Shown: in pieces, positions 1,919 through 21,471 of the stretch
Numbering within the stretch: position 1 is the stretch's first letter
Layout of the letters: every line of letters begins with the position of its first letter
Source: Actinokineospora auranticolor
Lineage (GTDB): Bacteria > Actinomycetota > Actinomycetes > Mycobacteriales > Pseudonocardiaceae
Direction: 5' to 3'
DNA length: 64,000 nt
Assembly (NCBI RefSeq): GCF_002934265.1
Contig: NZ_PTIX01000001.1
Coordinates: 434,001 to 498,000, forward strand
Notes under the pieces: model-generated
The model's input: only the letters and a program-made list of their open reading frames with translations
Database searches by the model: none
Told to the model about the DNA's origin: nothing
Made by a program: the position numbers and the translations under genes

Positions 1919-3258
1919 CACCGGCTCCCGCGGTGCGGCAGCCGCGGCAGGCCCAGGTCGTCGTAGAGCGCGCGGACCAGGGCGTAGCGGCGGGCGAAGG
2001 TCTTGACGTCGTTGAGCCGCCCGTTCCAGTACACCGCCACTACGAGGTCGAACAGCGGGTCCACGAGCAGCGTCGAGGTGTTGCCGCCCGCGTGTCCGTA
2101 GGTGCGGAAGGAGCAACGGCGACCGAAGACGGACGGCAGCGTCATAATGCCAAGCCCATAAGGGAAATCCGTGTCGCAAATGGACTTCCGGGGCGTTCCG
2201 GGCCAGTGCGTCGACGTCAGCGCCTCCACGGTCGCCGACCCCGCCACCGCCGTGTCCCCGTGCTTTCCGCCCGCCAGCAGGACATCCCCGACCACGCGCA
2301 GGTCGCTCATCGTGCCCCACACGCCCGCGCCCGGCAGCGGCAACGCGCTGACCAGGTTCATCGTCTGGAGCCCGGCCTCTTGGTCCGCCGCCGCGCGCAC
2401 GGTGACCCGCTGCTCCGCGGGCAGCGACCAGTCCGCGCCGAGCGTCGCCGTCTTCAGCCCCAGTCGGTCGAACATCGAACGGTAGCTGTCGCCCGAAGCG
2501 CTACCACCGACGGCCGCGAGCAGCCTGTCGAGCACGAACCAGTTGGTGATGGCGTTGTAGCTCATCGACGTGCCCGGCAACGTCCGCGTCTCGGCGCTGC
2601 GGATCACCGACCACAGCAGGTCTTCGACGTCCTCCCACGAGTTGATCTGCGCACCCGAGGGGTCGACGCTGGTCAGCGGCTCCGGCAGGCCGGTGGTGTG
2701 GGTGAGGAGGTCCCGCACCCGCACGGCTTCCTTGCCCCCGCCGACGAACTCCGGCAGCACCTCGTGGACCCGCGTGTCCAGTCCGATCGCCCCGGACTCC
2801 CACGCCGCCGCCAGCGCCAGCGCGCCGATCGGCTTGGACGAGCAGGTCCACGGCACCCGGGTGTCGGTGGTCAGCTCCCCACCCGCGCCGTTGTCGCCGA
2901 CGGCGAGGTCGACGACCTGCCCCGCGTGGCTCACCGACAGCTGCACGCCCGTCTGCACGCCGCGGCCGATCTCCTCCTCGAACAGCCGCCGGACGGTGTC
3001 CAGGTCGAGTCCCGCGCGCACGGTCATGGCCGCGTCCCCACTCCGGTGGAAGAGCTTCTCGTAGGCGCCGCGCAAGGAGACCGTGTCCCAGCCGTCCGTC
3101 AGGTCGGCCTCGGCCCGCGCCGACGGGTGCTCGGCCATCTCGTCGAGCCAGGCCAGCACGGCGTACTCGCCCGCGGGCAGCGCGCCGAGCGCCGTGTCCG
3201 CAGGCGCGCCGCCGGCGACCGGCGCGGCGAACTCCTCGTAGGACGGCGCCGCGCTCAC
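1918..3258 (-). CDS. Beta-lactamase-fold hydrolase/transacylase with Cys at the nucleophile position
   Basis: A 446-residue protein of the class C beta-lactamase / family VIII esterase / LovD-like superfamily. The core starts near residue 90 after an unusual N-terminal extension. The SxxK motif is replaced: the line reads TRVPWTCSSKPIGAL, so the residue three before the catalytic Lys is Cys (codon 2842-2844) and not Ser. The second motif is Tyr-containing (MSYNAITNW) and the C-terminal HxG motif is present (YGHAGGN), so the rest of the site looks intact. It starts with GTG at 3256-3258, overlapping the ACP stop (GTGA), and overlaps the P450 start. Position directly after an ACP gene suggests acyl transfer from, or hydrolysis on, that carrier protein, as LovD does; this is inference. 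See findings. Confidence 0.88.
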   Translation of the reverse strand: MSAAPSYEEFAAPVAGGAPADTALGALPAGEYAVLAWLDEMAEHPSARAEADLTDGWDTVSLRGAYEKLFHRSGDAAMTVRAGLDLDTVRRLFEEEIGRGVQTGVQLSVSHAGQVVDLAVGDNGAGGELTTDTRVPWTCSSKPIGALALAAAWESGAIGLDTRVHEVLPEFVGGGKEAVRVRDLLTHTTGLPEPLTSVDPSGAQINSWEDVEDLLWSVIRSAETRTLPGTSMSYNAITNWFVLDRLLAAVGGSASGDSYRSMFDRLGLKTATLGADWSLPAEQRVTVRAAADQEAGLQTMNLVSALPLPGAGVWGTMSDLRVVGDVLLAGGKHGDTAVAGSATVEALTSTHWPGTPRKSICDTDFPYGLGIMTLPSVFGRRCSFRTYGHAGGNTSTLLVDPLFDLVVAVYWNGRLNDVKTFARRYALVRALYDDLGLPRLPHRGSR

Positions 3259-3521
3259 GACGGCGACACCATCGACCGCACGGCCGACTCCAGCGCGCCG
3301 AAGGTCGCGAACGTCTCCCGCACCAGCAGCTCCTCCGGGAACTGGGTGCCGAACGTCTCCTCGATGTCCACCACCACCTCGATCGCGGTCATCGAGTCGA
3401 GGCCGAGGTCGGCCAGGGTGACCGCGGTCCAGTCACCGTCCGGCGGCAGCCTGCGCAGGTGCCGGGTGAGCACGTCGGCGAGCGCGTCGGACGTGGTGCT
3501 GGGCAAGGGTGAACCGGTCAT
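3255..3521 (-). CDS. Free-standing acyl carrier protein
   Basis: An 88-residue carrier protein. The phosphopantetheine site is LADLGLDSMTAIEVV, with the modified Ser at about residue 43. The following helix VDIEETFGTQFPEELL is typical of discrete ACPs of type II or starter-unit pathways. The ATG at 3519-3521 has a strong ribosome binding site (GGGAGG about 8 bases upstream); a longer upstream frame is rejected because it overlaps the SUMF1-like gene and is low-complexity. The stop overlaps the GTG of the Cys-hydrolase gene. Its partner enzymes may be the ATP-grasp or AMP ligases and the PLP decarboxylase further along, by analogy with BtrI of butirosin and VinL of vicenistatin biosynthesis; this is inference. 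Confidence 0.95.
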   Translation of the reverse strand: MTGSPLPSTTSDALADVLTRHLRRLPPDGDWTAVTLADLGLDSMTAIEVVVDIEETFGTQFPEELLVRETFATFGALESAVRSMVSPS

Positions 3522-3525
3522 GGTG

Positions 3526-4224
3526 CTACCTCCCGCGGCGCCCCGCGTCCCCGGCGAGCACGCGGAACCCGATGTAGGGCACGGCGGACAGCTCGTCGGC
3601 GGTGAACGCGGTGGTGTTCTCGAAACTCTCGGGGTTGCGCACGGTGTAGGCGCCACCCTTGATCACGCGCGACCCGACCGCGGTCGCGTCCCGGTCGGCG
3701 CACCACTCGAAGACGTTGCCGGTCAGGTCGCGCACGCCGTACGCGTTCGGTGGCGTGGCGCCGACGGGACGCGGCCCGGTCGCCGACGGCGGGGCGTAGA
3801 CCTGCCGGTCGAACACGTCGCCGAGCGCCCAGCGCGACCCGAGCGACCCGCCCGCCGCGTACCGCCACTCGGCGGCCGTCGGCAGCCCGCACGGCCTGCC
3901 GACCTGCGGGGAAAGCCAAGCGCAGTAGGCGAGGGCACCGTGCCAGGTGACACCGGTGGCCGGGAGCGCGCCCAGGTCCTCGTCGAGCACGACCCCACCT
4001 CCCACCGCGCGCAGGCCGGTTCCGGGTTCGGCCGGGAACCCGTGCAGCCGCGGATCGGGTGCGTCGCGCAAACCCGAATCCACGAGATAAAGCCAGTACT
4101 GGAATACCGTCGTCGGCACCACGGCGAGACCGAAACCGGGGGAGTCCGCCCCTTCGGGCAGCGTTCCGGGTGGGATCTCCGCGAATTCGGGTAGTTCGCG
4201 CCGGGTGTCGGGTATCGCGCTCAC
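3526..4224 (-). CDS. SUMF1/FGE-fold protein (second copy, short)
   Basis: A 232-residue member of the formylglycine-generating-enzyme-like fold. Recognisable segments are LPTAAEWRYAAGG, DLTGNVFEWCADR and GSRVIKGGAYTVRNPES. In true FGEs a pair of active-site Cys near the C terminus and an RGGS loop are needed; here the loop is KGGA and I see no matching Cys pair, so formylglycine synthesis is unlikely. Homologues of the fold also act in sulfoxide synthesis (EgtB) and other oxidations, but the metal-binding His of EgtB lies in a different domain that is absent here. GTG at 4222-4224 overlaps the stop of the first SUMF1-like gene (GTGA); the gene ends four bases before the ACP ATG. It is shorter and clearly diverged from its neighbour. 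Confidence 0.85.
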   Translation of the reverse strand: MSAIPDTRRELPEFAEIPPGTLPEGADSPGFGLAVVPTTVFQYWLYLVDSGLRDAPDPRLHGFPAEPGTGLRAVGGGVVLDEDLGALPATGVTWHGALAYCAWLSPQVGRPCGLPTAAEWRYAAGGSLGSRWALGDVFDRQVYAPPSATGPRPVGATPPNAYGVRDLTGNVFEWCADRDATAVGSRVIKGGAYTVRNPESFENTTAFTADELSAVPYIGFRVLAGDAGRRGR

Positions 4225-5027
4225 CGGGGCATCGCCACCCGGAAGCCGTAGACCTCGCACTTGGTGTCCTCGAAGGCCGCGAGCCTGCTCGACGGTCCCA
4301 GCTCGGCGGCCGGGTCGATGAACGAACCACCGCGCACCACGCGGAAAGCGCCGCGCTGCGCGCCGCGCGGGTTGCGCTGCGGCGCGGACCGGTACGGGCC
4401 GTACCGGTCGTGGCACCACTCGCGCAGGTTGCCCAGCATCTCGTGCAAGCCGGCGCCATCGGCGGGCAGGCTGCCCACCGGCACCGGGCCCGGGCTGCCC
4501 GGCGGGAAAGCACCCGTGCCGAGCTCACCCGCGCGCAGCGCCCGGCAGGCCGGGCTCGCGTCCGCGCTGTTGCAGGCGGCGGGATCGGGGGCGCCCGCGC
4601 GGCAGGCGGCCTCCCACTCGGCCTCGGTGGGCAGGCGGTAGCCGTCGAGGTCGAGGTCGGCCGTGCGGGCGGTGACGTCGTAGACCGCTTCGCGGCCCTC
4701 GGTGCGCGACAACCAGTTGCAGTACGCGGCGGCGGCCCAGAAGCTGATCTGGATCATCGGGAAGTCGGCGCACCCGGGCCGCAACGCGAAGCCGTCCGCG
4801 CGGTGCACGACGAAGGCCGGATCGATGCAGTCGACCATCGTGTGGTCCACGTCCTGCGGGGCCTCCCGCAGGAAGGCGTGGAAATCCCCGGCGCTGACGC
4901 AGCGGTCGGCCAACGCGAACGCGTCCAGGGTGACCTCGTGCGCGGGACCGGCCGAGGGATCGGATGACCCCACCGTGAGCGTGCGCTCGCCGAAGGGCAC
5001 CAATGCGAACTTCCGGTGTTCGGCCAC
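4221..5027 (-). CDS. SUMF1/FGE-fold protein (first copy)
   Basis: A 268-residue SUMF1-domain protein, first gene of the minus-strand run. Family segments include FALVPFGERTLTVGSSD at the N terminus, YRLPTEAEWEAACRAG, HEMLGNLREWCHDR and FRVVRGGSFIDPA. Several Cys are present (MVDCIDPAF, PGCADFP, AACNSADASPAC), more than in the short copy, but their spacing does not match the known FGE active-site pair by eye. The GTG at 5025-5027 is chosen since it follows a GGGGTGGA ribosome site and precedes the first conserved residues; the frame is open further upstream into the divergent promoter region. The role in the pathway is unknown; two tandem copies next to an ACP and an oxidase suggest a redox modification of a carrier-bound substrate (inference). 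Confidence 0.87.
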   Translation of the reverse strand: MAEHRKFALVPFGERTLTVGSSDPSAGPAHEVTLDAFALADRCVSAGDFHAFLREAPQDVDHTMVDCIDPAFVVHRADGFALRPGCADFPMIQISFWAAAAYCNWLSRTEGREAVYDVTARTADLDLDGYRLPTEAEWEAACRAGAPDPAACNSADASPACRALRAGELGTGAFPPGSPGPVPVGSLPADGAGLHEMLGNLREWCHDRYGPYRSAPQRNPRGAQRGAFRVVRGGSFIDPAAELGPSSRLAAFEDTKCEVYGFRVAMPR

Positions 5028-5142
5028 TCGATTCCACCCCGCGCGCGTTCGTCCACCCCCGAGAATGCTTCTGACCACCTTGCCCGACCGTCGGCCCTTG
5101 AGGCAAGGTTCTCGTTGTCCGCTTGATGAGGAGCGTCCTGCC
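5028..5142. promoter_or_regulatory. Divergent promoter region between SUMF1-type and LLM genes
   Basis: This 115-base gap separates two divergent start codons and must carry promoters for the minus-strand ACP/P450 run and for the plus-strand flavin monooxygenase. A ribosome binding site GAGGAG precedes the plus-strand GTG at 5143. No clear operator repeat was found. Confidence 0.5.
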
Positions 5143-6093
5143 GTGACCGACTGGGATTCGCTGAGCTTCATCGTCCCGCCGCACACCCGGGGTTTCGGCG
5201 TCGGTGGCCCGCTGCCGGTCAAGTCCTATCTGGACAGACTGGTGGACTACGCGCGCGCGGCCGAGGACATCGGTGTGACCGGCGCGTTCGTCTACGACTT
5301 CCCGGTCGCCATGGACCCGTGGCTGGCCACAGTCGACGTCCTGGCCTGTTCGACCGCGCTGGAACCGATCGTCGCGGTGCGACCGCACCAGGAGGCGCCG
5401 GAGTCGGTGGCGCGGCGGGTGGCGGACCTGGCGTACCGGTTCGGTCGGCCGACGCACGTGAACGTGGTCGCGGGGGCGACCCGGTCGTCCCGGGCGTCGG
5501 GGGACCAAGGGGACGAGAAGGCGGCCAAAGTGGCGGCCCGCGCGCGGCTGGCGGAGTTCGCGGGTCTGCTGCGGGCGGACCTCGACCGACGTGAAGGGGA
5601 TTCGCGGGCGCTGGTGGTGACGCCGTCGTCGTCGACACCGGGCGTCGTCCCGGCGGACGCCGTGCTGATGATGGCGCGTCCGCGCGAGACGCTGGCGGCG
5701 GACATCGCGCGGGTGCGGTCGGAGCAGGGGGTCGAGCGGGTCTTCCTGTTGGTCGGCCTGGTCGTACGGCCCACGGACGAGGCGGCGTGGACGGTGGCGG
5801 CCGAGTCGTACCGGCCGGACCGGCGGCAGGTGGTGGCGGGGCAGCTGTTCGTGTCCCAGGTCGTCTCGAGCGAACACACCGCCAGCTACGCGCTGGTGGA
5901 GCGGGGCGAGGTCCACGACGAACGGCTGTGGTACGGCGCGCCCGCGCGCGGGATCGACGCGCCGAAGCTGGTCGGCGCACCCGAACCGGTGCGCCGGTGG
6001 CTGCGGTCGTGCGCGGACCTGGGGGTCACGGACGTGATCGTCGACCTGGCCCCGGACCCCGCCGAGTACGCCCACTTCGGCGACGTGCTGTGA
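5143..6093 (+). CDS. Luciferase-like (LLM) flavin-dependent monooxygenase
   Basis: A 316-residue TIM-barrel protein of the bacterial luciferase/alkanesulfonate monooxygenase class. Evidence is the N-terminal pattern SYLDRLVDYARAAEDIGVTG, the strand with LEPIVAVRPHQEAPE (common FMN-site region), and FGRPTHVNVVAGA. These enzymes use reduced FMN from a separate reductase to hydroxylate or oxidatively cleave small substrates. BtrO, which hydroxylates the gamma-glutamyl-GABA-ACP of butirosin biosynthesis, belongs to this class, which fits the ACP and decarboxylase nearby (inference). The GTG at 5143 is preceded by GAGGAG at good spacing. The gene is convergent with the ATP-grasp gene that ends at 6299. 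Confidence 0.85.
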   Translation: MTDWDSLSFIVPPHTRGFGVGGPLPVKSYLDRLVDYARAAEDIGVTGAFVYDFPVAMDPWLATVDVLACSTALEPIVAVRPHQEAPESVARRVADLAYRFGRPTHVNVVAGATRSSRASGDQGDEKAAKVAARARLAEFAGLLRADLDRREGDSRALVVTPSSSTPGVVPADAVLMMARPRETLAADIARVRSEQGVERVFLLVGLVVRPTDEAAWTVAAESYRPDRRQVVAGQLFVSQVVSSEHTASYALVERGEVHDERLWYGAPARGIDAPKLVGAPEPVRRWLRSCADLGVTDVIVDLAPDPAEYAHFGDVL

Positions 6094-6158
6094 CCGGCCC
6101 GCACCGAAGCCGATCTTGAACGTGGTGCGCTCGCGGGGTTTTCCCCCAGGTGCGGGAC

Positions 6159-6298: not shown

Positions 6299-7486
6299 TT
6301 AAAGCGGGCGGGTGCGGACGGCCAGGGTGTGGCGCGTGAAGTCGAGGGCCTTGTCGAGGGTGGGAAGGTCCGGGCCGGTGAAGAGGACGAAGATCCGGCG
6401 CTGCATGGAGGAGACGGCTGGGGGGACTGTGTCGCCGATGTCGACCAGGACGCCCGCGCGGTCGACGGTCGGGTGTGCGCGGACCTCGTCCAAACCCTCG
6501 ATGGCGGTGACAACCCCGGGGTCGGTCAAGGGGAAGTAGCCCGCCGCCGGGGTCGGGGTGCGGGGCTGGGCCTCGAGTACCGGCATGCCCAGGGAAAGGC
6601 GGACGACCAGCTCGAACCAGTCGCGGTCGTGGCTCAGGCAGATCAGGTCCATCAGGAAGTCGCCCGGCGTGCGCACGGCGACCTCCATCAGGGTTGGGCC
6701 GTCCGCCGCGACTCGGTATTCCAGGTGGACTATCCCCGTCCGCATCCCCAGACCCGTGAGCACCCGCGCGGCCAAGTCCTCGACGGCCGCCGATTCGGCG
6801 GGGTCGAGCAGCACGCCCGTGCGGTGGCCCGTCTCGATGAACCGCGGCGGGCCCGTGGTCTCCTTGGCGGTCACGTTGGCGCACAGCACTTCCCCGTCGC
6901 GCACCAGCGCTTCCCAGCTGTACTCCGGTCCCTCGACCATCGACTCGACCAGCAGCGGCGACTCGCCCGCCCGCCGGGCCGCGGCGTCGGCGAACGCGTC
7001 CGCGTCGGCCACCGACTCCACGCCGTCGCTGCCGGTTCGGGAGACCGCCTTGACCACGACCGGGTACCGGGACGCCGCCCAGTCGGCCGCGTCCGCCAAC
7101 CGGCCGGTGATCAGGTGCTCGGGTTGCCGCACCCCGGCGACGGCGAACCGGCCGCGCTGCAACGCCTTGTCGCGGGAGATCGCCGACGCGCGCAGGGACG
7201 GCCCGGGCAGGCCCAGTTCGTCCGCCACCAAGGCGGCGGCCAGCACGTGCTGCTCGGCGAACGCCAGCACCCCGTCGGGCCGCCTGCGGGCCGCGGCGTC
7301 GAAGGCCGCCGCGGCCCAGGCCTCGTCCGTGTCGCCCGCGGCGATCGTCAGGTGCTCGACCTCACCCGTCAGCGCCGCCGCCCGGTCCGCCGTCTCGATC
7401 GCGTGCACCGCCACGCCCAGCCGCCGCGCGGCCGCCAGGTACGGCCTCCCCATCACGCCCACGCCCACCAGCAGCAGTTCCGGCAC
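6299..7486 (-). CDS. ATP-grasp carboxylate-amine ligase (first)
   Basis: A 395-residue ATP-grasp enzyme expected to form an acyl-phosphate and join it to an amine or thiol. Visible are the N-terminal Rossmann-like domain (LLLVGVGVMGRPYLAAARRLG), the ATP-binding domain (YPVVVKAVSRTGSDGV), the metal-binding GIVHLEYRV and the C-terminal LMEVAVRTPGDF. This lay-out is seen in L-amino-acid ligases and in BtrJ-type enzymes that load amino acids on ACPs. The GTG start at 7484-7486 has a GGAGGAG site. The start lies 125 bases inside the end of the upstream MFS gene, an unusually long overlap. The second ATP-grasp (14330) differs in sequence, so two ligations may be needed. Confidence 0.92.
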   Translation of the reverse strand: MPELLLVGVGVMGRPYLAAARRLGVAVHAIETADRAAALTGEVEHLTIAAGDTDEAWAAAAFDAAARRRPDGVLAFAEQHVLAAALVADELGLPGPSLRASAISRDKALQRGRFAVAGVRQPEHLITGRLADAADWAASRYPVVVKAVSRTGSDGVESVADADAFADAAARRAGESPLLVESMVEGPEYSWEALVRDGEVLCANVTAKETTGPPRFIETGHRTGVLLDPAESAAVEDLAARVLTGLGMRTGIVHLEYRVAADGPTLMEVAVRTPGDFLMDLICLSHDRDWFELVVRLSLGMPVLEAQPRTPTPAAGYFPLTDPGVVTAIEGLDEVRAHPTVDRAGVLVDIGDTVPPAVSSMQRRIFVLFTGPDLPTLDKALDFTRHTLAVRTRPL

Positions 7487-8726
7487 CGGGTTCTCCTCCG
7501 AGGTCCTTGGGACGGGCGCGCTCCAGCACCACCACGAGCGCGCCCGCGCCCGCCAGCACGGCGGCCAGCGCGCCCCAGCCCGCGGCGCCCGCGGGCAGCA
7601 CGGCCGTGGTGATCACCCACGGACCGGCGATCATCGCGCCGGTCTGGCCCAGGTTGTAGATCGACAGGAAGTAGCCGCGACGGTCCTCCGGGGACAGCGC
7701 GTAGGACAGCCCCCACGCCCCGACGGCCTGGTAGACCTCGCCGACCGTGAGGGCCGCCGTCGCGGCGAGCACCAGTCCGGCGGTCACCCAGGCGGACGTG
7801 GAACCCGTGGCGGCGACCAGGAGGCAGCACGCGGCCAACGCGGCTCCCGCGCGCGCCTGCCGCACCGCCGCCGGACGCGCGCCGTCGACACCCCGGCTGA
7901 ACCGCATCTGCAGGCCCACGGCCAAAACCGTGTTCAGCACCACGATAGCGCCGATGAGCGCCCCCGGGGCCTTCGTGTAGTCCGCCACCCAAAGGGGCAA
8001 CGCGACAGTCAGGAGAACCGCGTGCAGGTAAAGCAAACCGTTGAGGCAGGCCAAGAACAGGTACCGGGCGTTCGGCCGCACCTTGACCTCGAGGGCCGAC
8101 TCGGTCCTGGTCGGGACCGGCACGTGCGTGCGCACGCGCAGCAGCAGGACACCGGAGACGAGGAACGACGCGGCGTCGAGGAACACGAGCGTTGTGTACA
8201 CACCCGCGCCGCCCGCCGCGATGGCCCACGCCGCCGCGGCGGCGCCCGCGGTGAACCCGACGTTGCGCACCAGCATCAGCGCCGACATCGACCGCACCCG
8301 CGACTCGGCCTCCACCAACGACCCCACGAACGACTGCACCACCGGCGGCGCCGCCCACTCGCCCGTGCCGCCGAGGATCGCGACGATCAGGAACAGGGTG
8401 AGGTTGTCCGCGAACGGGTACGCCGCGAAGCACGCGCCGCGCCACCACTGCAACCCCACCAGCGCGCGGTGCGCGCCGATCCGGTCGGCGAGCCGCCCGA
8501 CCAGCACCGAGCAGGCGAACCCGGCGATCCCGGCCAGGGACAGGCCGAGGCCGACCTGGTCGGCGGTGAGCCCGAGCGAGCGGGTGAAGAACAGCGCGGA
8601 CCCGGTGAGGAACAGGCCGGTGCCCAGCGAGTCGACGAACGAGACGCCGAGCAGCATCCGCATCGGGCGCCCCGGCGGCAGCCACGACGTCGCCGCGCGC
8701 GCCAAGCGCCCCCCGCTCCGTGCCAT
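7362..8726 (-). CDS. MFS transporter, probable exporter
   Basis: About 454 residues with 12 hydrophobic segments, e.g. MLLGVSFVDSLGTGLFLTG, LGLGLSLAGIAGFACSVL and WVITTAVLPAG. The loop GRLADRIGAHRALVG between helices 2 and 3 is the MFS signature. Likely exports the product or a precursor across the cell membrane. The ATG at 8724-8726 follows GGGGAGGA; an upstream TATGTT probably is the -10 box. The C-terminal 50 or so residues are Gly/Arg-rich and overlap the following ATP-grasp gene by 125 bases; either the overlap is real or a base error removed the natural stop near 7490. Confidence 0.9.
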   Translation of the reverse strand: MARSGGRLARAATSWLPPGRPMRMLLGVSFVDSLGTGLFLTGSALFFTRSLGLTADQVGLGLSLAGIAGFACSVLVGRLADRIGAHRALVGLQWWRGACFAAYPFADNLTLFLIVAILGGTGEWAAPPVVQSFVGSLVEAESRVRSMSALMLVRNVGFTAGAAAAAWAIAAGGAGVYTTLVFLDAASFLVSGVLLLRVRTHVPVPTRTESALEVKVRPNARYLFLACLNGLLYLHAVLLTVALPLWVADYTKAPGALIGAIVVLNTVLAVGLQMRFSRGVDGARPAAVRQARAGAALAACCLLVAATGSTSAWVTAGLVLAATAALTVGEVYQAVGAWGLSYALSPEDRRGYFLSIYNLGQTGAMIAGPWVITTAVLPAGAAGWGALAAVLAGAGALVVVLERARPKDLGGEPGAGTAAGGRGRDGEAVPGGRAAAGRGGARDRDGGPGGGADG

Positions 8727-8926: not shown

Positions 8927-9541
8927 ATGAGTGACTACATCTACGCGATCGAGTTCAACCTGGGAGCGCGGGGCGACGCCGCCGAGGAGATCCTGGCGGA
9001 CGCGGCCCGCACGTGGCCGAAGGTCTGGGGCGAGATCCCCGGTGTGACGAGCACGGTGCTGTTGTCGAGCGCGCTGGCGCTCGGCGGTGAGTTCGACTAC
9101 CAGCTGCGGGTCGGCCTCGAGTCGCTGGCGACCCTGGCCCGCGTCGACGAGGCGATCAAGTCCGGCGCGAACGGGTGGCGCAAGGCGAGCGCGTCGTGGT
9201 TCCGGCACCGCACGGCGGCCCGCGCGCACGTGAGCCAGTACGTGGACGGGGACCGGGGCTACAGCCAGGCGGGTGAGGGGCGCGCGGGCGCCATCCACAT
9301 CGCCTTCCAGGCCGCGGACAGCGGGAAGGCGCTCGACACGGCGTCGCTGGAGTCGGTCTCGGGCGTGGTGTCGACGCAGGGGCTGCGGCCGGTCCTCGGC
9401 GGGGCGGGCGCGGAGCAGCGCTGGGTCCGCCTGGAGAGCCTGGAGAGCCTCGACCGGGTGAGCGAACTGCTCGGCGCGGGCACCGCCGCGGTGTTCGGTG
9501 AACTCCGCGAGGTCGACGGCGCGTTGTTCGCGGGCGCGTGA
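8927..9541 (+). CDS. Uncharacterised protein coupled to a ThiF-like enzyme
   Basis: A 204-residue cytosolic protein that I cannot place in a family. It has no signal peptide or membrane segment. Two halves each start with a strand-rich segment (YIYAIEFNLGARGD near residue 3; GAIHIAFQAADSG near residue 120), followed by a helix and another strand, which would fit a duplicated ferredoxin-like or dimeric alpha/beta-barrel fold; this is a guess from pattern only. The ATG at 8927-8929 is preceded by CGGGAG. Its TGA overlaps the GTG of the next gene (GTGA), so it is made together with the E1-like protein and may be its substrate, partner or a subunit. Confidence 0.75.
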   Translation: MSDYIYAIEFNLGARGDAAEEILADAARTWPKVWGEIPGVTSTVLLSSALALGGEFDYQLRVGLESLATLARVDEAIKSGANGWRKASASWFRHRTAARAHVSQYVDGDRGYSQAGEGRAGAIHIAFQAADSGKALDTASLESVSGVVSTQGLRPVLGGAGAEQRWVRLESLESLDRVSELLGAGTAAVFGELREVDGALFAGA

Positions 9542-10562: not shown

Positions 10563-11275
10563 AAGGGCGAGAAGGAGGCGTGTCGTTGGGGAGCCTGGCG
10601 TAGAGGACGTCGCAGCGTCGGCGGGCCAGGCAGATCAGTGCGGCGTTCTGCTCGGCAACCTGCTTGCGTTGCTGGAGAACGATTTTCGGGCTGTCCGCGA
10701 GCCGCGGCAGGACGGTGTCCGCAGCGGCGGTGCCCGGGACGGTGACGGTCTGCTTGCCCAGCGCGGTCAGGATCGTCTCCACCAGCCGCTCGCCCATGCG
10801 GGGCGCGTGCTTGGTGGCGATCCCGGCCGGACCGCCGCAACGCGAGAGGATCTCCAGGACGGCCGGCTGATCCGCGGGCCGATGGCGTGTTCGAGGGTGG
10901 GGTGGATGCCGGTGAGCAGACCCCGGATCCGGTTGGTGATGCGGGTGGCTTCGCCTGCCAGGTCGTCGCCGAACCCGACCAGCACCTCCAGTTCGGCCAG
11001 GGTTTCGTCGCCGACATCGACCGGGCGCAGGGGGTGGGGCAGGGAGCGGGCGGCGTCGGCGGTGACGAACGCGTCCCGGGCGTCGGTCTTGGCGCGGCCG
11101 GGGTGGAGGTCGGCGATGCGACGCATCGCCAGTCCGGGCAGACAGGCGACCTGATGCCCGGCCGCGCGGGTGACCGCGACCGGCAGCACCCCGATCGTGG
11201 CGGGCTGATCGACGACGACCAGCAGCGGTCCGTGCTCGGCGAGCTTGCCGAATGGGTTCGACTGGGGGCGTTGGT
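10563..11275 (-). pseudogene. IS110-family transposase remnant
   Basis: Read on the minus strand, the first part has the IS110 DEDD-domain lines LLVVVDQPATIGVLPVAV, LPGLAMRRIADLHPGRAK and TDARDAFVTADAARSLPH. The frame then shifts near 10850-10880 and goes on with MGERLVETILTALGKQ and SPKIVLQQRKQVAEQ, which runs directly into NAALICLARRRCDVLYA, the family's C-terminal line. The N-terminal start of the DEDD domain and most of the Transposase_20 domain are missing. So this is a 5'-truncated, internally deleted and frameshifted copy, unable to transpose. It follows the ThiF-like gene by about 17 bases. Confidence 0.88.
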
Positions 11276-14310: not shown

Positions 14311-14332
14311 TGCGCTAACATAGCCGGTCATG
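14308..14332. promoter_or_regulatory. Overlapping divergent -10 boxes with two leaderless starts
   Basis: The seven bases TAACATA (14316-14322) serve both strands. On the plus strand TAACAT is eight bases before the ATG at 14330; on the minus strand TATGTT is six bases before the GTG at 14310. Neither gene has a Shine-Dalgarno sequence, which fits leaderless mRNAs from one shared bidirectional core promoter. Only one polymerase could bind at a time. Confidence 0.65.
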
Positions 14333-15625
14333 GGGCCGGTTTCCGGAGATGAGAAGTACCTGCTCGTGCTCGGCGCCGCGATGTCCCTGCGGGAGCGCGC
14401 GATCGTCGCCGCGCTGCGGGTCTTCGACGGCCCGCTGGTGACGATCGCCCGCGGCCGCGACAGCCGCGCCGCCAAGTTCTTCGACCACGTGCTGGTCGGC
14501 GACTTCAGCGACCCCGACGACTCGCTGCGCGCCGTCGTGGAGCACGAGAAGGAAACCGGGCGCGTGCCCGCCGGGGTCGTGCCGTTCTTCGACCCGGGGC
14601 TGGTGCCCGGCTGGGCCATCGCCGACCACTACGGCCTGCCGTTCCTGAGCCGGGCGGCGGTCGACGACTCGTCGATCAACAAGAACCGGATGAAGGACAA
14701 GCTGCTCGCGGCCGGTGTCGCGACCCCGCGCTACACGCAGGTGGACAGCGTCGAGGCGGCCCTGGCGGCAGCCGGGGGATACGGGTTCCCGTGCGTGATC
14801 AAGCCCTCGGCCTTCGGCGGCAGCCTCGGTGTGCGGCTGGTGTCGGACGCGGCGGAGGTCGAGCGGGCGTATTCGTACGCCCGTCGGATCATCGACGAGA
14901 ACGCCGCAGTGTTCACGGTGAAGAACCGCGAGATCCAGGTCGAGGAGTTCTGCCCGCTGGTCGACGAGGTGTCGGTGGAGGTGCTCAACCACGGCACCGA
15001 GCAGGTGGTGCTGGCGGTGACGGACAAGATCCTCGGACCGCGCCCGTACTTCGCGGAGATCGGGCATCGGGTCCCGAGCCGGTATTCGAGCCGTTCGGAC
15101 GTCGATGACGTCACCAAGCGAGCCTGTGCGGCGATCGGCCTCGACCGGGGTATCGCGCACGTGGAGCTGCGGCTGGAACCGGGGGCGGCCCCGGTCGTCA
15201 TGGAGGTCGGCGCGCGGACGGCGGGCGACGGGATCCTGGACCAGGTGGAGCGGGTCTGCGGGGTGTCGCCGTACGAGCTGCACGTGCTGTCGTACCTCGA
15301 CCGGTTGGACCGGATGCCGGAGTTGCCCGCGCCGAGCGGGTTGGCGGGGATTTCGGTGCTGAAGGCGGCCCCGGGTCGTGTGTCGGCGGTGCGGAAACCG
15401 TCCTCTGTGGACCCGGCGGTGCGGGGGTACGAGGTGTCGGCTGTCGCGGGGACCCGATCGGGCGCGACCCAGGCCAACTACCTGGATCGTGAGGGGTACG
15501 TGGAGTTCGTGTGGCCGGGGGCGGTGCCGGAGGACGTTCCGCTGGACACGCAGACCGTCATCGCCCGCGACCTGTCGGCCCAGCTCTTCGAGGTCGACGA
15601 TGCGGACCTGCCCGCCGCGCCCTGA
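14330..15625 (+). CDS. ATP-grasp carboxylate-amine ligase (second)
   Basis: A 431-residue ATP-grasp enzyme, distinct from the copy at 6299. Marks are the N-terminal LLVLGAAMSLRERAIVAAL, the ATP-clamp lines YGFPCVIKPSAFGGSLGV and EIQVEEFCPLVDEVSVEV, the metal-site line GIAHVELRLE and VMEVGARTAGDGI. Related enzymes ligate amino acids to peptides, polyketides or carrier proteins. It starts at an ATG 8 bases after a TAACAT -10 box, without a ribosome binding site, hence probably leaderless. It is divergent from the GNAT gene and shares its promoter, so amide-forming ligase and acyltransferase may be made together. Confidence 0.9.
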   Translation: MGPVSGDEKYLLVLGAAMSLRERAIVAALRVFDGPLVTIARGRDSRAAKFFDHVLVGDFSDPDDSLRAVVEHEKETGRVPAGVVPFFDPGLVPGWAIADHYGLPFLSRAAVDDSSINKNRMKDKLLAAGVATPRYTQVDSVEAALAAAGGYGFPCVIKPSAFGGSLGVRLVSDAAEVERAYSYARRIIDENAAVFTVKNREIQVEEFCPLVDEVSVEVLNHGTEQVVLAVTDKILGPRPYFAEIGHRVPSRYSSRSDVDDVTKRACAAIGLDRGIAHVELRLEPGAAPVVMEVGARTAGDGILDQVERVCGVSPYELHVLSYLDRLDRMPELPAPSGLAGISVLKAAPGRVSAVRKPSSVDPAVRGYEVSAVAGTRSGATQANYLDREGYVEFVWPGAVPEDVPLDTQTVIARDLSAQLFEVDDADLPAAP

Positions 15626-16120: not shown

Positions 16121-17248
16121 CTATGGGGACGGCATCCGATCGCGCTGGTGATCCATTGCGGGGGCTGTCAGGCCGTGGGTCCAGAATTCGTAGTGGTGGT
16201 CCAGGCACAGGTTCCAGTGGGCGTGCGGTAGGCCGCAGGCGGTGGTGGCTACGCGGAGGATGTCTGGGGTGGGGGTTCCTTGCCAGGCGCCGCCGGTGAC
16301 CAGTAGGGAGGTGAAGTTCTGGGGGGTGAGGGTGCCCTGGTGGGTGAGGCGCCAGAGGGAGAGGTAGAGGCAGGTTAGGAAGGCGGTCTGGGGTGTAGGG
16401 ATCTTGCCTTCGCTGAGGGAGTGGTAGAGGGATCGGGCTTGGGGTGGGTCGATGGCGGTTGCCAGGTCCATCAGGCCCGTGTGGGTGGCCAGTGCGCGGT
16501 GTGGGTTCGCGACACCCAGATCCGTGAAGACGTGGTGGGTGTTGTGGTGGATGGTGGTGGTGGTGCCGCCGATGTCCACCAGGAGGAAGGGGTGGGTGAC
16601 GTCGGGGAGGAAGTTGTCGCGGGTCAGGCGTTCGGCGGCGACGGTGAGGATGGTGGGGGTAGGCAGGATGGGGGTCTCGGTGGCGCCCGCCAGGGGGCGG
16701 AGTCCTTTGTGGTCTACGAGATCGCCGAGGTGGAGGTTGTGGATCAGGTCGGACAGGCCGCCGGGCGACGGGCGCAGGCGGTGGTCCAGGACGTTGGGGG
16801 CGCGGTGGTCGACGGGCAGGTGCGCGACCAGGTCCGGATCGTCGGCACCAGCCCAGACGAGGACGTCGTGGGGGTGGTCGGCGAGCCTGGTGCGGGACAG
16901 GCACGTCCGCAGGTGGGTGTGGTCGGCGCCGTCCACCCCACCCGCCATGACGAGGATGTCGACGTGGGGGAGCGGCGACGCGGGCCGCTCGCCGAGCAAG
17001 TGGGTGTAGGCGACGTTTCCAGCCGCCGCGGCCGGGGCGCTGTGGCCGCGGGTAAGGCCCAGGACGCCGACGCGAGGGGCCGCGTTGGCCGAGCTGCACA
17101 CGCGCAGGCGGTCCGCGCCGTTGGTCAGTGACAGCACTTGTTCGCCCGGCGAGATTCCCGGGGCCCGCGGCACTACGCGAACGGCGCGCGTGCCCGCCTC
17201 GCACAGCTTGATCGTCGTGCTGCCGATGTCGACGAGGAGCGTGGTCAC
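16121..17248 (-). CDS. glmL: Glutamate mutase reactivating protein (MutL/GlmL-type)
   Basis: A 375-residue ASKHA-fold ATPase of the MutL group that exchanges damaged cobalamin in glutamate mutase. Both phosphate-binding repeats are seen: VTTLLVDIGSTTIKLCE at the N terminus and HPFLLVDIGGTTTTIHH near residue 230, plus VMAGGVDGADHTHLR. It is shorter than the usual length of around 460 residues. Its GTG overlaps the TGA of the E-subunit gene (GTGA), so it belongs to the same operon. Codon use at the 5' half is less GC-biased than in neighbours, with many His/Thr codons (e.g. THTGLMDL). Confidence 0.85.
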   Translation of the reverse strand: MTTLLVDIGSTTIKLCEAGTRAVRVVPRAPGISPGEQVLSLTNGADRLRVCSSANAAPRVGVLGLTRGHSAPAAAAGNVAYTHLLGERPASPLPHVDILVMAGGVDGADHTHLRTCLSRTRLADHPHDVLVWAGADDPDLVAHLPVDHRAPNVLDHRLRPSPGGLSDLIHNLHLGDLVDHKGLRPLAGATETPILPTPTILTVAAERLTRDNFLPDVTHPFLLVDIGGTTTTIHHNTHHVFTDLGVANPHRALATHTGLMDLATAIDPPQARSLYHSLSEGKIPTPQTAFLTCLYLSLWRLTHQGTLTPQNFTSLLVTGGAWQGTPTPDILRVATTACGLPHAHWNLCLDHHYEFWTHGLTAPAMDHQRDRMPSP

Positions 17249-18639
17249 GTCAGCACCCGGATGTCGCGGAGCAGGCCCTCCCACAGGGGACCGTCCTCGG
17301 ACTTGGGGCCGCGCAGTTCGCGTTCCCGGCGCATGCTTTCCGTCGACAGCGGCACGGAACCCGGCTCCAGGACGCGGATCCGCCGACCCGTGCCGCGTAC
17401 GGCGATGAGCGCGGCGGCGTTCTGCTCGTGCGGGGCGAACGGCACGTCGATCACCCCGTCGAGGACGGCGTGGTGGACGGCGGACAGGAACGACGGCGCC
17501 GGGTGGTCCAGTATCCGGGTCAGCACCTCGGTGACCTCGCGGTCGAGGAGGTCCCGTTCGCACTCCACGACCTCGTTGCTCAACGGCCGACAGGCGGGGA
17601 ACATGTCGAGCACGTAGCGGACCGCGCGCACGGACGCGGCGTTGTTCTCGATCGAGGGGATCCCGACCGCCTCGTCCGGGGTCTTGACCACCACCTTGTC
17701 CGCGCCCACCAACCCGCTGATCGCCGCCGACACCGCGATCAGTTGCCACGCCAGCGAAGGCTCCGCCGGAAACGCGCCCATCCACTGGTGGTACGCCAAC
17801 CGGACGTCCACGGCGAACCCGAACCGCGCCAGCAGGTCGGCGGCGTGGGCGCGCAGCACGGTGGCGATGGCCAAGTCCTGTTCGAAGCTGCCCGTTTGCC
17901 CGTAGCTGACGGTGAAAGCCGTGACCCCCTGCTCGGCCGCCAACAGCAATTCGCACAGCTGCACCACAACGGTGATGACCGGCGGCACCAGGGTCGCCGT
18001 CAACGGACCGAACGACTCCCGCTGGACGGGCGCGTCCGCCGGGCCGACCTCGGCACACAGCCGATCCACGTACTGCCAGTGCACCAGCGCCCGCTCGACC
18101 GGGAAGGCGCGCGAATAGGGCAGCGAATAGCTCAACCCGCCGCCCTCGATCTCGGTGATGCCCGAGGCCAAGGCGAGTTCGGCCAGGAGCCGTGCGTCCG
18201 GTGTGCCGTGTCGCAGGCTGACCGGGCGTTCGATCCCCTCGAACAGCCCTCGGGTCGTCGTGACGCCATGAGCCACCAAGGGGTAGCCGTTGAGCAGGTC
18301 GCGGCCCTCGGCCAGGCTCGCGGCGAGGAGGCGGGCCGCTGTGTCGTGGTCGTTGTGGCGGGTGTGGCTGTCCACGGTCAACGGGATGAAGTCCGCGCCC
18401 GCCGCGTCGAAGGCCAGGGTGAGGGCGCGTTGCTTCGCCGCGGACGGGAAACCGCCGCGTGGTTGGACGAGCGGACCCGGGCGCCGGTAGGCCACGGACG
18501 CGAACCGGGCGCGCGGCAGGGCGGCCAGGTGGTCGGCGGCCGTCGACGGGGTCAGGTCCGGCGCGCCGTACCGCTCGATGAGCCGGTGCCGGTCCGCGGC
18601 GAGGTCGCCGACGCGGGCGTGGTCACCGGGCGCCGCCAC
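17245..18639 (-). CDS. glmE: Glutamate (methylaspartate) mutase E subunit
   Basis: A 464-residue TIM-barrel subunit of adenosylcobalamin-dependent glutamate mutase, which turns L-glutamate into (2S,3S)-3-methylaspartate. Typical lines are PLVAHGVTTTRGLFEG, RPVSLRHGTPDARLLAELA, EGGGLSYSLPYSRAFPVERA and AVSYGQ-like VSYGQTGSFEQD; length matches the family. In secondary metabolism this enzyme supplies 3-methylaspartate (e.g. vicenistatin VinI/VinH). The GTG at 18637-18639 lies 17 bases inside the S-subunit gene. No stand-alone methylaspartase is in the window, so use as an anabolic building block is more likely than glutamate fermentation. Confidence 0.93.
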   Translation of the reverse strand: MAAPGDHARVGDLAADRHRLIERYGAPDLTPSTAADHLAALPRARFASVAYRRPGPLVQPRGGFPSAAKQRALTLAFDAAGADFIPLTVDSHTRHNDHDTAARLLAASLAEGRDLLNGYPLVAHGVTTTRGLFEGIERPVSLRHGTPDARLLAELALASGITEIEGGGLSYSLPYSRAFPVERALVHWQYVDRLCAEVGPADAPVQRESFGPLTATLVPPVITVVVQLCELLLAAEQGVTAFTVSYGQTGSFEQDLAIATVLRAHAADLLARFGFAVDVRLAYHQWMGAFPAEPSLAWQLIAVSAAISGLVGADKVVVKTPDEAVGIPSIENNAASVRAVRYVLDMFPACRPLSNEVVECERDLLDREVTEVLTRILDHPAPSFLSAVHHAVLDGVIDVPFAPHEQNAAALIAVRGTGRRIRVLEPGSVPLSTESMRRERELRGPKSEDGPLWEGLLRDIRVLT

Positions 18640-19114
18640 CGCCGCCCCTTCCGACGAGCGCGGGCCCGATCCCTTCCAGGGCAGAGCGAGCGAGGTCGGC
18701 GCGCAGCGCCTCGAACACCGGGTGCAGGCTCGCGGGCCGGTGGAAGACGCGGTGGAAGCCGAAACCGGTGTAGAGCCGCGTCACCTCCGCCGCGGGCCGG
18801 TCGCCCAGCGCCAGGTTCCCGCCGACGTACCGGAGCACGTCCGCGAGGCCCGCCGCGGCGAAGCGCGCGCCGAAACCCGCGCAGGACTTCTGGCCCTCGC
18901 CGTTGACCGAGGCGACGAGCACCGCTCGCGCCCCGGTCTCCAGCACCGCGTCGGCGAAATCGTCGACGGTGTTGTTCGTGCCCAGGTTGTACGGCCGGAA
19001 ACCGTGCTCGGCCATACCGATCTCCAGCACCCGGTTGGCCACGACGTGGATGTCGTTGCCCACCAGGCCCAGCACCACGCCGGTACCCGGCGCGCCCGGG
19101 CTATTTCCGGACAC
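18623..19114 (-). CDS. glmS: Glutamate mutase S subunit, B12-binding
   Basis: A 163-residue cobalamin-binding domain. The family DxHxxG motif appears as NDIHVVANR: Asp and the cobalt-ligating His are kept, but Gly is Ala. The following lines GFRPYNLGTNNTVDDFADAV, LVASVNGEGQKSCAGF and VLRYVGGNLALGDRP fit the Rossmann-like B12 fold. The final 15 residues are Gly-rich. The GTG at 19112-19114 overlaps the end of the radical SAM gene by 14 bases; the gene is tightly coupled to E and L subunits. Confidence 0.92.
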   Translation of the reverse strand: MSGNSPGAPGTGVVLGLVGNDIHVVANRVLEIGMAEHGFRPYNLGTNNTVDDFADAVLETGARAVLVASVNGEGQKSCAGFGARFAAAGLADVLRYVGGNLALGDRPAAEVTRLYTGFGFHRVFHRPASLHPVFEALRADLARSALEGIGPALVGRGGGGGAR

Positions 19115-20138
19115 TCGGCATGGGCAGCGCGGTGAGGCCCGTCTTCTTCTGCGCCTCCGTCTGCCCCGGGAAGTCGAAGTGGCGGAAGCAGGAGAACGTC
19201 TGGTCCTCGTGCTTGCTCCGCACGAAAGCCTGCAACCGCGGGCTGTTCTCGTAGATGGCGAGCATGTCCGTGTCGAACACGTTGCCGATGACGTCCGGGT
19301 TGCCCAGCTCGCAGATCATCACGTCGCCGTTGGAGTGCAGGTGCAGCTGCGCCTTGCCCTCGATGCAGCTGGCGTAGATGACGCCCGGGTCCTGGAACAG
19401 CGGCTGCAGGCGCGCCCAGTGCGCGCTGCCGGGCCGGAAGTAGGCCGACAGGCAGCTGAAGAACATCGTGGTCTCGGGGCGGCGGGCCTGGACGAGCTCC
19501 ACGATGGAGTCGCAGATCCGGTCGTGGTCCAGGGTGTTCTCGTAGCCCTGGTGCAGGCTCGGGATCTCCATCTGGATCTCGTGCTTGGCGACCCCGAGGT
19601 CGGCGGCGAAGCGGTGCACGTCCGCCATCGTCTTCTCGGTTTCGTTGAAGAGGATCGTCTCCACCACTGCGTCGATTGTTGGCGACGCGACAGCCCGCTC
19701 GACGGCGTACACGATCTTCGGGAACATCTTCTCGGTGACCTTGTAGAACTCGGCGTGTCGGGCCGCGTCGGTGTGGTTCAGCGAGAAGTGCAGCACGTCG
19801 AGACCGGCCGCTTCGAGGCGGTTGAATTTCTCGTCGTTGAGCAGCGTGCCGTTAGAATTGATCTGCGTCGAGATGCCGTGCGCGGTGCAGTACTCGATGA
19901 TTCCGACGCAGATGTCGAATTCCAGGAGCACCTCGCCGCCGGACAGTTTCACGCGTTCCAGGTCGGGCAGGCTGTCAATCACCCGAGCCACGTCCTCGAC
20001 CGAGAGGATCTTGCGTTCCAGCAGGTCATACGCACCGCAATAGCTGCACCGGAAGTTACACCGGGACGTCACCCCGATTTCGATGGCCCGCAGGTTGCCT
20101 GGACCCAGTTTGCGCATCTCCAGCGATTTGAACGTCAA
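19101..20138 (-). CDS. Radical SAM enzyme leading the glutamate-mutase operon
   Basis: About 345 residues. The 4Fe-4S motif is CNFRCSYC (Cys about 27, 31, 34) and SAM-binding lines are KLSGGEVLLEFD and INSNGTLLNDEKF. The C-terminal part has further Cys (IYASCIEGKAQLHLHSNGDV, MICELGNPDVIGNV) in a truncated SPASM-like arrangement that could hold a second cluster. The target is unknown; as first gene of the mutase operon it may act on glutamate, methylaspartate or a later conjugate. A TTG at 20136-20138 is chosen as start because GGGGG stands six bases upstream; a TTG at 20153 and an ATG at 20117 are alternatives. GC content drops slightly at its 5' end. Confidence 0.9.
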   Translation of the reverse strand: MTFKSLEMRKLGPGNLRAIEIGVTSRCNFRCSYCGAYDLLERKILSVEDVARVIDSLPDLERVKLSGGEVLLEFDICVGIIEYCTAHGISTQINSNGTLLNDEKFNRLEAAGLDVLHFSLNHTDAARHAEFYKVTEKMFPKIVYAVERAVASPTIDAVVETILFNETEKTMADVHRFAADLGVAKHEIQMEIPSLHQGYENTLDHDRICDSIVELVQARRPETTMFFSCLSAYFRPGSAHWARLQPLFQDPGVIYASCIEGKAQLHLHSNGDVMICELGNPDVIGNVFDTDMLAIYENSPRLQAFVRSKHEDQTFSCFRHFDFPGQTEAQKKTGLTALPMPSVRK

Positions 20139-20259
20139 CGGTGCCCCCTGCAACTCGTGACAAGTGACTGATCTCGCAGGCTACACTCAGGTGATTTCGG
20201 ACGCAAGGCATTCAGGGTCCCCTTACTCGGCGTGATAGTGGAAGGAATCGGGCAATCAG
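20139..20259. promoter_or_regulatory. Divergent promoter region, radical SAM vs PLP decarboxylase
   Basis: About 120 bases, less GC-rich than the flanks, between two divergent starts. A possible plus-strand -10 is GATAGT near 20231, and GGAAGGAA precedes the decarboxylase GTG. The shared region suggests that the mutase operon and the decarboxylase are controlled together. Confidence 0.5.
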
Positions 20260-21471
20260 GTGAACCGCGCGGAACTGCTCCAAACGAGTGAACGGTACGG
20301 AACCCCGCTTTACCTCTACGACCTCGCGGAGGTTCGGGATCGCGCGAACGAGTTGTTGGCCGCGCTCCCGGGGGGAACGTCGCTGCTCTACTCCCTGAAG
20401 GCCAACCCGCTGCTCCCCGTCGTGGCGGAGTTGCGCGGGGTCGGTTGCGGCGCCGAGGTTTCGTCGCTGGGCGAACTGGATGTCGCGGTGGCGGCGGGGT
20501 TCCGGGCCGCGGACGTGCTCTACACCGGACCGGGGAAGTCACGCGGTGAGATCGATGCGGCGATCGCGCGCGGCGCGGAGCTGTTTTCCTGTGAGTCGGA
20601 GACCGAACTGGACCGGCTCGGCGCGGCCGCGGCCGACGCGGGGCGCCGGGTGCGCGTGCTGCTGCGGTTGCAGCCGGGCGACCGGCCCGCGTCCGGGCTG
20701 TCCATGGCCGACGGCAGGCAGTTCGGTCTCACGGCGACCGAGGCGGTCCGCGCCTGGCCCGCGGCGGCGGAGTCGGTGGAACTACTCGGGTTCCACGTCT
20801 ACCTGGGGTCCCAACTGGGAACGGTCGAGCACCTGTTGACGGGGTTCACGTGCGCCAAGGCCGTGGTGGACGAGGTCGTCGCGGGCACGGGTGTCCCGCC
20901 CCGGATCGTCGACCTGGGCGGGGGTTTCCCGTGGCCCTATGCCGCGGAGGGTGTGGGTTGTGACCTGATCGGGTTGCGCGAAGGGCTGACGGACCTGCTG
21001 TCGGACTGGGCGGAGTCCGCGCCGCGTGTCTGGTTCGAGACCGGGCGGCGGCCGACGGCGGCGGCGGGGACGCTGCTGACGACCGTCATCGACGTGAAGG
21101 AGCGCGAATCCGGTGTCGTCGTGGTGGTCGACGCGGGCATCAACGTGCTCGGCGGGATGGCGGGCCTGGGGCGCGTGTTGCGGCTGAACACCACTGTGGA
21201 CAACCTGAGTGCCGCGGACGACCGCCCCGAGGTCGCCGTGGACGTCGTCGGTCCGCTGTGCACGCCACTGGACCGGGTGGCCGCCAGAACCCCGGCCCGG
21301 AAGCCCGCCCCGGGGGACGTGCTCCGGGTGCACAACGTCGGTGCCTATGGGGCAACGGCGAGCCTGACGGCGTTCCTGAGTCGACCCGGTCCGCTGGAGT
21401 TGGTCGTGGACGGGGACGAGGAAGTCGGCGCGTGGCGGATCGACGCGCGGGCGGTGCCGGTCACCGGGTGA
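20260..21471 (+). CDS. Fold-type III PLP-dependent decarboxylase (BtrK/VinO-like)
   Basis: A 403-residue alanine-racemase-fold enzyme of the diaminopimelate/ornithine decarboxylase group. PLP Lys is in LLYSLKANPL (residue 47); the HxGS line is FHVYLGSQLG, the phosphate loop DLGGGFPWPY, and the C-terminal half supplies GPLCTPLD (Cys about 334) and NVGAYGATAS. The CTPLD version is common in enzymes of secondary metabolism such as BtrK, which decarboxylates glutamyl-ACP, and VinO, which decarboxylates 3-methylaspartyl-ACP. With the glutamate mutase genes divergent next to it, 3-methylaspartate (free or ACP-bound) is the most likely substrate; the product would be 3-aminoisobutyrate or an isomer (inference). 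GTG start follows GGAAGGAA. Confidence 0.9.
   Translation: MNRAELLQTSERYGTPLYLYDLAEVRDRANELLAALPGGTSLLYSLKANPLLPVVAELRGVGCGAEVSSLGELDVAVAAGFRAADVLYTGPGKSRGEIDAAIARGAELFSCESETELDRLGAAAADAGRRVRVLLRLQPGDRPASGLSMADGRQFGLTATEAVRAWPAAAESVELLGFHVYLGSQLGTVEHLLTGFTCAKAVVDEVVAGTGVPPRIVDLGGGFPWPYAAEGVGCDLIGLREGLTDLLSDWAESAPRVWFETGRRPTAAAGTLLTTVIDVKERESGVVVVVDAGINVLGGMAGLGRVLRLNTTVDNLSAADDRPEVAVDVVGPLCTPLDRVAARTPARKPAPGDVLRVHNVGAYGATASLTAFLSRPGPLELVVDGDEEVGAWRIDARAVPVTG

Follow-up and report, generated by a model that had tools for sequence, protein, structure and literature searches.

Actinokineospora auranticolor (Pseudonocardiaceae), as well as six other actinobacteria, possesses a 13-gene cluster core in which the glutamate mutase genes stand together with genes for a free-standing acyl carrier protein (ACP), an adenosine monophosphate (AMP)-forming ligase, a pyridoxal phosphate (PLP)-dependent decarboxylase and a radical S-adenosylmethionine (SAM) enzyme. 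We propose, with moderate confidence in the flow as a whole, that this core builds an unusual, probably 3-methylaspartate-derived β-amino acid unit on the free ACP; that the cluster is a real biosynthetic unit is nearly certain. It lies in a stretch of 64,000 nucleotides (contig NZ_PTIX01000001.1, positions 434,001-498,000; hereafter the window), of which it occupies about 560-21471. The original prediction, made from the letters of this window, had described an 18-kb set at 3255-21471; this was a real gene cluster, and its left edge was drawn too far right, as the genes for a cytochrome P450 and a PF00144 family hydrolase belong to the core. All parts that it listed (the mutase set, ACP, AMP ligase, PLP decarboxylase, a luciferase-like monooxygenase (LLM) and two ATP-grasp ligases) are found where they had been placed, with family matches, whereas five further core genes (for the P450, the PF00144 hydrolase, two FGE-like proteins and a tandem-GNAT protein) had gone unnamed, as had an MFS transporter gene.

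The radical SAM protein served as bait in following the conservation of the core, and its own presence in all seven clusters is therefore by construction. When the contigs of 84,980 species were scanned, the closest among the matches listed came from A. bangkokensis, at 80%, and Micromonospora sonchi, at 79%, and the next of these matches reached 40% over part of the protein. At E ≤ 1e-40, the bait was present in 2 of the 390 genomes searched from the window's family, one being that of the window itself, in 5 of 354 genomes of the family of M. sonchi and in 1 of 396 genomes drawn from the phylum, again the window's own, i.e. seven distinct clusters from two actinobacterial families (two and five). 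As our home-made GC-frame gene caller had fused or cut some genes (e.g., ATP-grasp 2 in the cluster labelled C, the hydrolase and FGE2 in cluster F), presence was judged by tblastn. Twelve genes accompany the bait in all seven clusters (P450, PF00144 protein, ACP, FGE1, FGE2, LLM, decarboxylase, GlmS, GlmE, GlmL, AMP ligase and GNAT protein), and for this reason the radical SAM enzyme is itself counted as core. The gene order is unlike between the two families, and the joint occurrence is therefore not mere leftover synteny. A close ortholog of ATP-grasp 2 was found in six clusters (27% in F), close orthologs of ATP-grasp 1 and of the MFS transporter in five each, and cluster F is without close orthologs of either ATP-grasp. 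The gene for a ThiF/MoeB-type adenylyltransferase and its neighbour encoding a 204-aa protein are present in two of the seven. When 14 window proteins were compared with the six relatives (blastp), the radical SAM protein showed the highest mean conservation (75-80%), and GlmL (42-52%) was the least conserved core protein. At the level of sequence, gene presence, family membership, intact residues and joint conservation can be regarded as established.

In the proposed pathway, GlmS and GlmE, kept active by GlmL, would convert L-glutamate to 3-methylaspartate, and the AMP ligase would attach the latter to the ACP via the carboxylate β to the amine. Removal of the free carboxylate by the PLP decarboxylase would lead to 3-aminoisobutyryl-ACP, a probable intermediate, whose new amine may be capped by the FemX-fold (tandem-GNAT) enzyme with an amino acid from an aminoacyl-transfer RNA (tRNA), in the place of VinM of the vicenistatin route or of the second BtrJ reaction of the butirosin route. 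LLM, P450, radical SAM enzyme and the paired FGE-like proteins would oxidize or rearrange the unit, hydroxylation being the step presumed for LLM. A PF00144 protein with a cysteine nucleophile would take the acyl group off the ACP (by transfer or release), the cluster-variable ATP-grasp ligases would join the unit to further amino acids, and the MFS proteins would export the product. All these reactions, their order and the product are what we infer from the gene content.

A merger of the vicenistatin and butirosin logics had been foreseen by the original prediction. The AMP ligase, the ACP (with its GLDS motif in all seven clusters), the mutase and a decarboxylase distinct from diaminopimelate (DAP) decarboxylases agree with it, whereas a merger by way of a BtrJ-like ATP-grasp as the ACP loader is not supported. 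Because the AMP ligase is invariant (7/7) and the ATP-grasps are variable, the AMP ligase is likely the ACP loader, as in the vicenistatin route and not as with BtrJ, and the ATP-grasps would act in a later, variable joining step. The same prediction had suggested that the radical SAM enzyme and the ThiF pair have no place in either route and may add a new step. The radical SAM gene does have a place, as a core gene that opens the glmS-glmE-glmL run, and the view that its product adds something appears right, a radical step being presumed. The ThiF pair, occurring in two of the seven clusters, is accessory and was rejected as a core step.

The fold-III PLP decarboxylase has BtrK as its best PDB match (8.4e-43). 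The motif GPLC[TS]PxD is found in BtrK, in all seven cluster enzymes (GPLCSPLD in cluster E) and in macrolactam-type proteins, i.e. four plasmid-borne proteins encoded beside glutamate mutase genes that stand in here for VinO, whereas DAP decarboxylases have CESGD, CETGD or CESSD at this site. Phylogeny against BtrK and the DAP decarboxylases had been named in advance as a check, and the DAP decarboxylases split off from the cluster enzymes in the 28-sequence tree (support 100/97) as well as in a 25-sequence tree without three long rows (100/100). In the latter tree, the seven decarboxylases are sister to a clade with the macrolactam-type proteins (98/97 jointly), and BtrK joins the exosortase-type decarboxylases (96/95). 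A DAP decarboxylase identity was rejected on the grounds of the motif (no CESGD/CETGD) and of the position outside the LysA clade; the enzyme is, judged by these features, of the BtrK/VinO kind, with ACP dependence predicted. The trees drew on 8 of 17 non-cluster decarboxylase-like loci and on 13 of 216 plasmid records, nine of which gave rows (L145, L150, L151 and L153 had no called decarboxylase). The reduced trees omit the long-branched decarboxylase rows L121, L122 and L123 and two ligase rows, and neither the decarboxylase nor the ligase tree is free of long branches or of rows that differ in composition.

In the PDB, the pocket stretch of the AMP ligase has its best match in VinN. This enzyme recognizes 3-methylaspartate as a β-amino acid via D230, F231, S299, K330 and R331, and its loop is one residue shorter than that of α-amino acid enzymes (as described in PMC11253843). 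In the seven cluster ligases, these positions are occupied by D, Y, S, F and R, four of the five being kept or similar, and the short loop has the same length. Because of this pocket and loop, the ligase likely reads a β-amino acid; that it reads 3-methylaspartate specifically is no more than plausible, and the loss of K330 sets it apart from a plain VinN ortholog.

In the glutamate mutase, the known active-site residues are intact. In GlmE, compared with the Clostridium cochlearium chain 6H9E over residues 31-441, R66, R100, R149, E171, Y177, Y181, K326 and E330 are kept, which we take to be residues for substrate or cofactor. The cobalamin-His motif of GlmS (DIHVVA), the CxxxCxxC motif of the radical SAM enzyme and the heme-Cys motif of the P450 are present in all seven clusters. 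The predicted model of the radical SAM enzyme has a mean confidence score (pLDDT) of 66.6, with its SPASM part poorly modelled, and among the 50 matches listed it matched general radical SAM folds alone. In the PF00144 protein, the serine of the SxxK motif is replaced by cysteine (CSSK) in 7/7 clusters (six full alignment rows and the seventh by six-frame reading); this cysteine aligns with the serine of STTK in 5GKV, and a His-Ala-Gly motif is likewise present in all seven. As a thiol nucleophile in an ACP-centred cluster, it suggests, by analogy, thioester exchange. In A. bangkokensis, the first ~75 residues of this protein (window ~3020-3258) have their counterpart in a 78-aa gene of its own (L085 13651-13887; 45%), and the other five clusters gave no good match to them. 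FGE1 lacks the catalytic cysteine after RGGS (GGSFID vs GGSYMC in FGE), and both FGE1 and FGE2 match PvdO weakly. LLM gave three PDB matches, all alkanesulfonate monooxygenases (best 4.6e-7), and could play the role of BtrO. The model of the tandem-GNAT protein folds like FemX and for this reason suggests tRNA-dependent aminoacylation, perhaps the capping of an amine as by VinM or BtrJ.

Several observations weigh against a 3-methylaspartate unit processed in this way. The position of VinN K330 is occupied by F in all seven AMP ligases, and these ligases group with an exosortase-A-type ligase and a second M. sonchi ligase (85/85 in the reduced tree, the full tree being unresolved there), a placement which we regard as moderately firm; the stretch LTEAFRST is common to the cluster ligase (LTEAFRSTFLE) and an Aureimonas exosortase-A-associated ligase (LTEAFRSTYLD). 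Because of the K330 replacement and this grouping, the substrate may be other than 3-methylaspartate. The GlmE proteins are only 29-32% identical to those encoded beside macrolactam-type genes. In the GlmE tree, the seven group with three chromosomal Streptomyces-type proteins, apart from the four beside macrolactam-type genes (100/100), and for these reasons it is probable that this pathway and that of vicenistatin were put together independently. No flavin reductase for LLM was found among the shared genes. A sequence search of the PDB with the profile of the FemX-fold protein gave no chain at E ≤ 1, and the protein may act without tRNA. No feature points to a particular reaction of the radical SAM enzyme or the FGE-like proteins. 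Finally, the P450 and GlmL matches of cluster F (L111 6641-7971; L112) each fall into two pieces in different frames, with the P450 pieces abutting, and therefore either damage to this cluster or an error in its draft sequence may be present.

Alternatively, the cluster may make two building blocks, i.e. free 3-methylaspartate that is joined by the ATP-grasps, and glutamate or aspartate that is processed by AMP ligase, ACP and decarboxylase as a butirosin- or exosortase-type module. M. sonchi even possesses a second AMP ligase/decarboxylase/ACP set of the exosortase type (L156 13051-16066, G390:C12) with no glutamate mutase in the 34 kb covered there, and the position of GlmE outside the macrolactam clade fits as well as the ligase pocket and its grouping do. 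The parts are nevertheless kept together in all seven clusters, even in F with neither ATP-grasp closely conserved, and the decarboxylase is nearer to the macrolactam-type clade than BtrK is; we consider two separate blocks unlikely, if still a serious possibility. Since peptides are common substrates of the SPASM and FGE families, a peptide or protein might also be the target of the radical SAM enzyme and the FGE-like pair, which would make the cluster an amino-acid-tagging system or one resembling those for ribosomally synthesized and post-translationally modified peptides. No small precursor is shared among the called genes of the seven clusters (genes below 50 codons were not sought), and the presence of ACP, AMP ligase and decarboxylase implies thioester chemistry on small molecules, so that peptide modification seems improbable. 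An ordinary vicenistatin-type starter set, as which glutamate mutase, AMP ligase and decarboxylase together would qualify (according to PMC11284099), feeding the polyketide synthase (PKS) at 28-58 kb whose genes begin ~7 kb to the right, is largely refuted and very improbable, since a close PKS counterpart is missing near the other clusters (partial ketosynthase-type matches of 35-41% in C only), the 13 core genes include neither a second amino-acid adenylation enzyme nor an acyltransferase, and AMP ligase and GlmE lie outside the macrolactam clades; a single macrolactam cluster reaching to this PKS was rejected on the first of these grounds.

The 3-methylaspartate-derived unit on the ACP, which we prefer, can be compared with four known systems. 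With vicenistatin biosynthesis (VinH/I, VinN, VinL, VinO, VinM), the cluster has in common glutamate mutase, AMP ligase, free ACP and a fold-III decarboxylase of the kind for which ACP dependence is predicted, and amine capping is proposed here as well. It differs in that no PKS is common to the clusters, the AMP ligase has F for K330, ligase and GlmE fall into other clades, a FemX-fold protein takes the place of VinM, and P450, LLM, radical SAM enzyme, FGE pair and Cys-PF00144 protein are added. Free ACP, BtrK-related decarboxylase, LLM oxygenase and ATP-grasp ligases recall the 4-amino-2-hydroxybutyrate (AHBA) side chain of butirosin (BtrI, BtrJ, BtrK, BtrO); here, in contrast, the AMP ligase is the likelier ACP loader, the ATP-grasps are variable, and BtrK itself groups with exosortase-type decarboxylases. 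To our knowledge, the butirosin route does without glutamate mutase. The exosortase-A-associated AMP ligase and PLP decarboxylase models (TIGR03098/TIGR03099) are the best NCBIfam models for both cluster proteins, although the scores are under the curated cut-offs (AMP ligase 492.7 vs 592.35; decarboxylase 238.4 vs 478.45), the cluster decarboxylase is in another clade, and no exosortase gene was noticed here. Furthermore, FemX/MprF-type aminoacyl-tRNA-dependent transferases, including Sba18/Sbb17, are 8-18% identical to the cluster GNAT protein, which stands here beside a carrier protein pathway and whose use of tRNA is suggested by its model. No described cluster of such a make-up was found in the literature searched, and the A. 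bangkokensis locus may be among the 35 clusters tabulated in PMC6273641; the parts are familiar, the combination is not.

The genes are listed in Table 1. Overlapping or abutting runs are formed by P450, hydrolase, ACP, FGE2 and FGE1 and by GlmL, GlmE, GlmS and radical SAM enzyme. FGE2 has a GTG start that overlaps the FGE1 stop, and its reading frame is open. The radical SAM gene likely starts with TTG (end 20138); most analyses used 19101-20126.

Table 1. Genes of the cluster in the window, with core, variable or accessory status across the seven clusters
Product	Status	Position	Strand	Matches and occurrence
Cytochrome P450	core	560..1918	-	PF00067 1.9e-65; matched in 7/7 clusters
PF00144 (class C β-lactamase/esterase) family protein, Cys for SxxK serine	core	1918..3258	-	PF00144 8.4e-40
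Free-standing acyl carrier protein	core	3255..3521	-	PF00550 2.8e-9; 7/7
FGE/PvdO-like protein 2 (FGE2)	core	3526..4224	-	weak GldK/PvdO matches for 3526-4218; 7/7
FGE-sulfatase-fold protein 1 (FGE1)	core	4221..5027	-	PF03781 6.2e-38 (longer frame 4221-5222); 7/7
Luciferase-like monooxygenase (LLM)	core	5143..6093	+	PF00296 3.9e-9; 7/7
ATP-grasp ligase 1 with LAL_C2 domain	variable	6299..7486	-	PF13535, PF18603
MFS transporter	variable	7362..8726	-	PF07690 7.4e-25
204-aa protein	accessory	8927..9541	+	no Pfam match; 2/7
ThiF/MoeB-type adenylyltransferase	accessory	9538..10545	+	PF00899 3e-60; 2/7
IS110 transposase remnant, between ThiF gene and AMP ligase		10767-11360		PF01548
AMP-forming ligase	core	11535..13088	-	PF00501 3.6e-78; 7/7
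Tandem-GNAT protein with FemX fold	core	13138..~14301	-	14301 is the edge of the analysed stretch, not a settled start codon
ATP-grasp ligase 2	variable	14330..15625	+	PF13535 1.5e-15
GlmL-like (MutL family) accessory protein	core	16121..17248	-	PF13941 1.1e-11 (longer frame 16121-18058); NF040745 3e-11; 7/7
Glutamate mutase subunit E (GlmE)	core	17245..18639	-	PF06368 7.8e-116
Glutamate mutase subunit S (GlmS)	core	18623..19114	-	NF002612 133.3 bits vs cut-off 110
Radical SAM/SPASM enzyme	core	19101..20138	-	PF04055 6.5e-20, PF13186 3.1e-6
Fold-III PLP decarboxylase, predicted ACP-dependent kind	core	20260..21471	+	PF02784 6.9e-31; GPLCTPLD motif

In M. sonchi (L090 1-2839) and in genome G1065 (L135, G1065:C1:5079870-5082707), a gene for the cobalamin-dependent methionine synthase MetH lies between the P450 and PF00144 genes, and on contig C223 of cluster F a MetH gene is ~35-40 kb from the cluster. 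A role as a self-resistance copy was rejected: it is the sole MetH found in D, one of these two genomes, and four other genomes have an off-cluster MetH of 78-81% identity, so that it looks like an ordinary gene. Beside its core, cluster F has a gene of carrier size together with genes for a second AMP ligase and an acyl-CoA dehydrogenase-like protein (L111 3442-6357), a set reminiscent of pyrrole-carboxyl units. Another combination of glutamate mutase with a carrier protein was seen on a Streptomyces plasmid (L155 7489-15047), comprising GlmS, GlmE, a lantibiotic dehydratase, ACP, AMP ligase and an ATP-grasp (33% to ATP-grasp 2). The host genome has 8.43 Mb. Next to the cluster in the window, 21485-22357 encodes a protein with a Papain fold toxin 1/glutamine deamidase domain (PF15644), whose N-terminal stretch is reminiscent of the leaders found on injected effectors; no match to it turned up in the stretches from A. 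bangkokensis and M. sonchi. Separate from the cluster, 28178-38857 encodes a large PKS polypeptide (a nitronate monooxygenase domain followed by ketosynthase (KS), acyltransferase (AT), carrier and ketoreductase domains), followed by a KS-AT-dehydratase protein, and a secreted-looking subtilase (PF00082; 57809-61009) adjoins the PKS genes. No RNA family scored above threshold in the window, and the loci of the six relatives gave one tRNA and one small RNA match and no riboswitch.

The 13-gene core, without PKS or multimodular nonribosomal peptide synthetase and found in few genomes, may represent a short route to an amino-acid-like metabolite. It bears on the function of glutamate-mutase-linked radical SAM enzymes, on the action of FemX-type enzymes on carrier-bound amines and on that of Cys-PF00144 proteins on thioesters. 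Our most specific version, tentative and rather doubtful in its full detail, is that the FemX-type enzyme, drawing on aminoacyl-tRNA, caps the amine of 3-aminoisobutyryl-ACP before or after the radical SAM enzyme changes the methylaspartate skeleton, for example by introducing a double bond or closing a ring at the methyl group made by the B12-dependent mutase, and that the Cys-PF00144 protein then hands the unit over. If true, this would be a third way of handling a carrier-bound β-amino acid, besides an adenylation enzyme (VinM) and an ATP-grasp (BtrJ), and two radical enzymes, the first using B12 and the second SAM, would act in sequence on one small amino acid.

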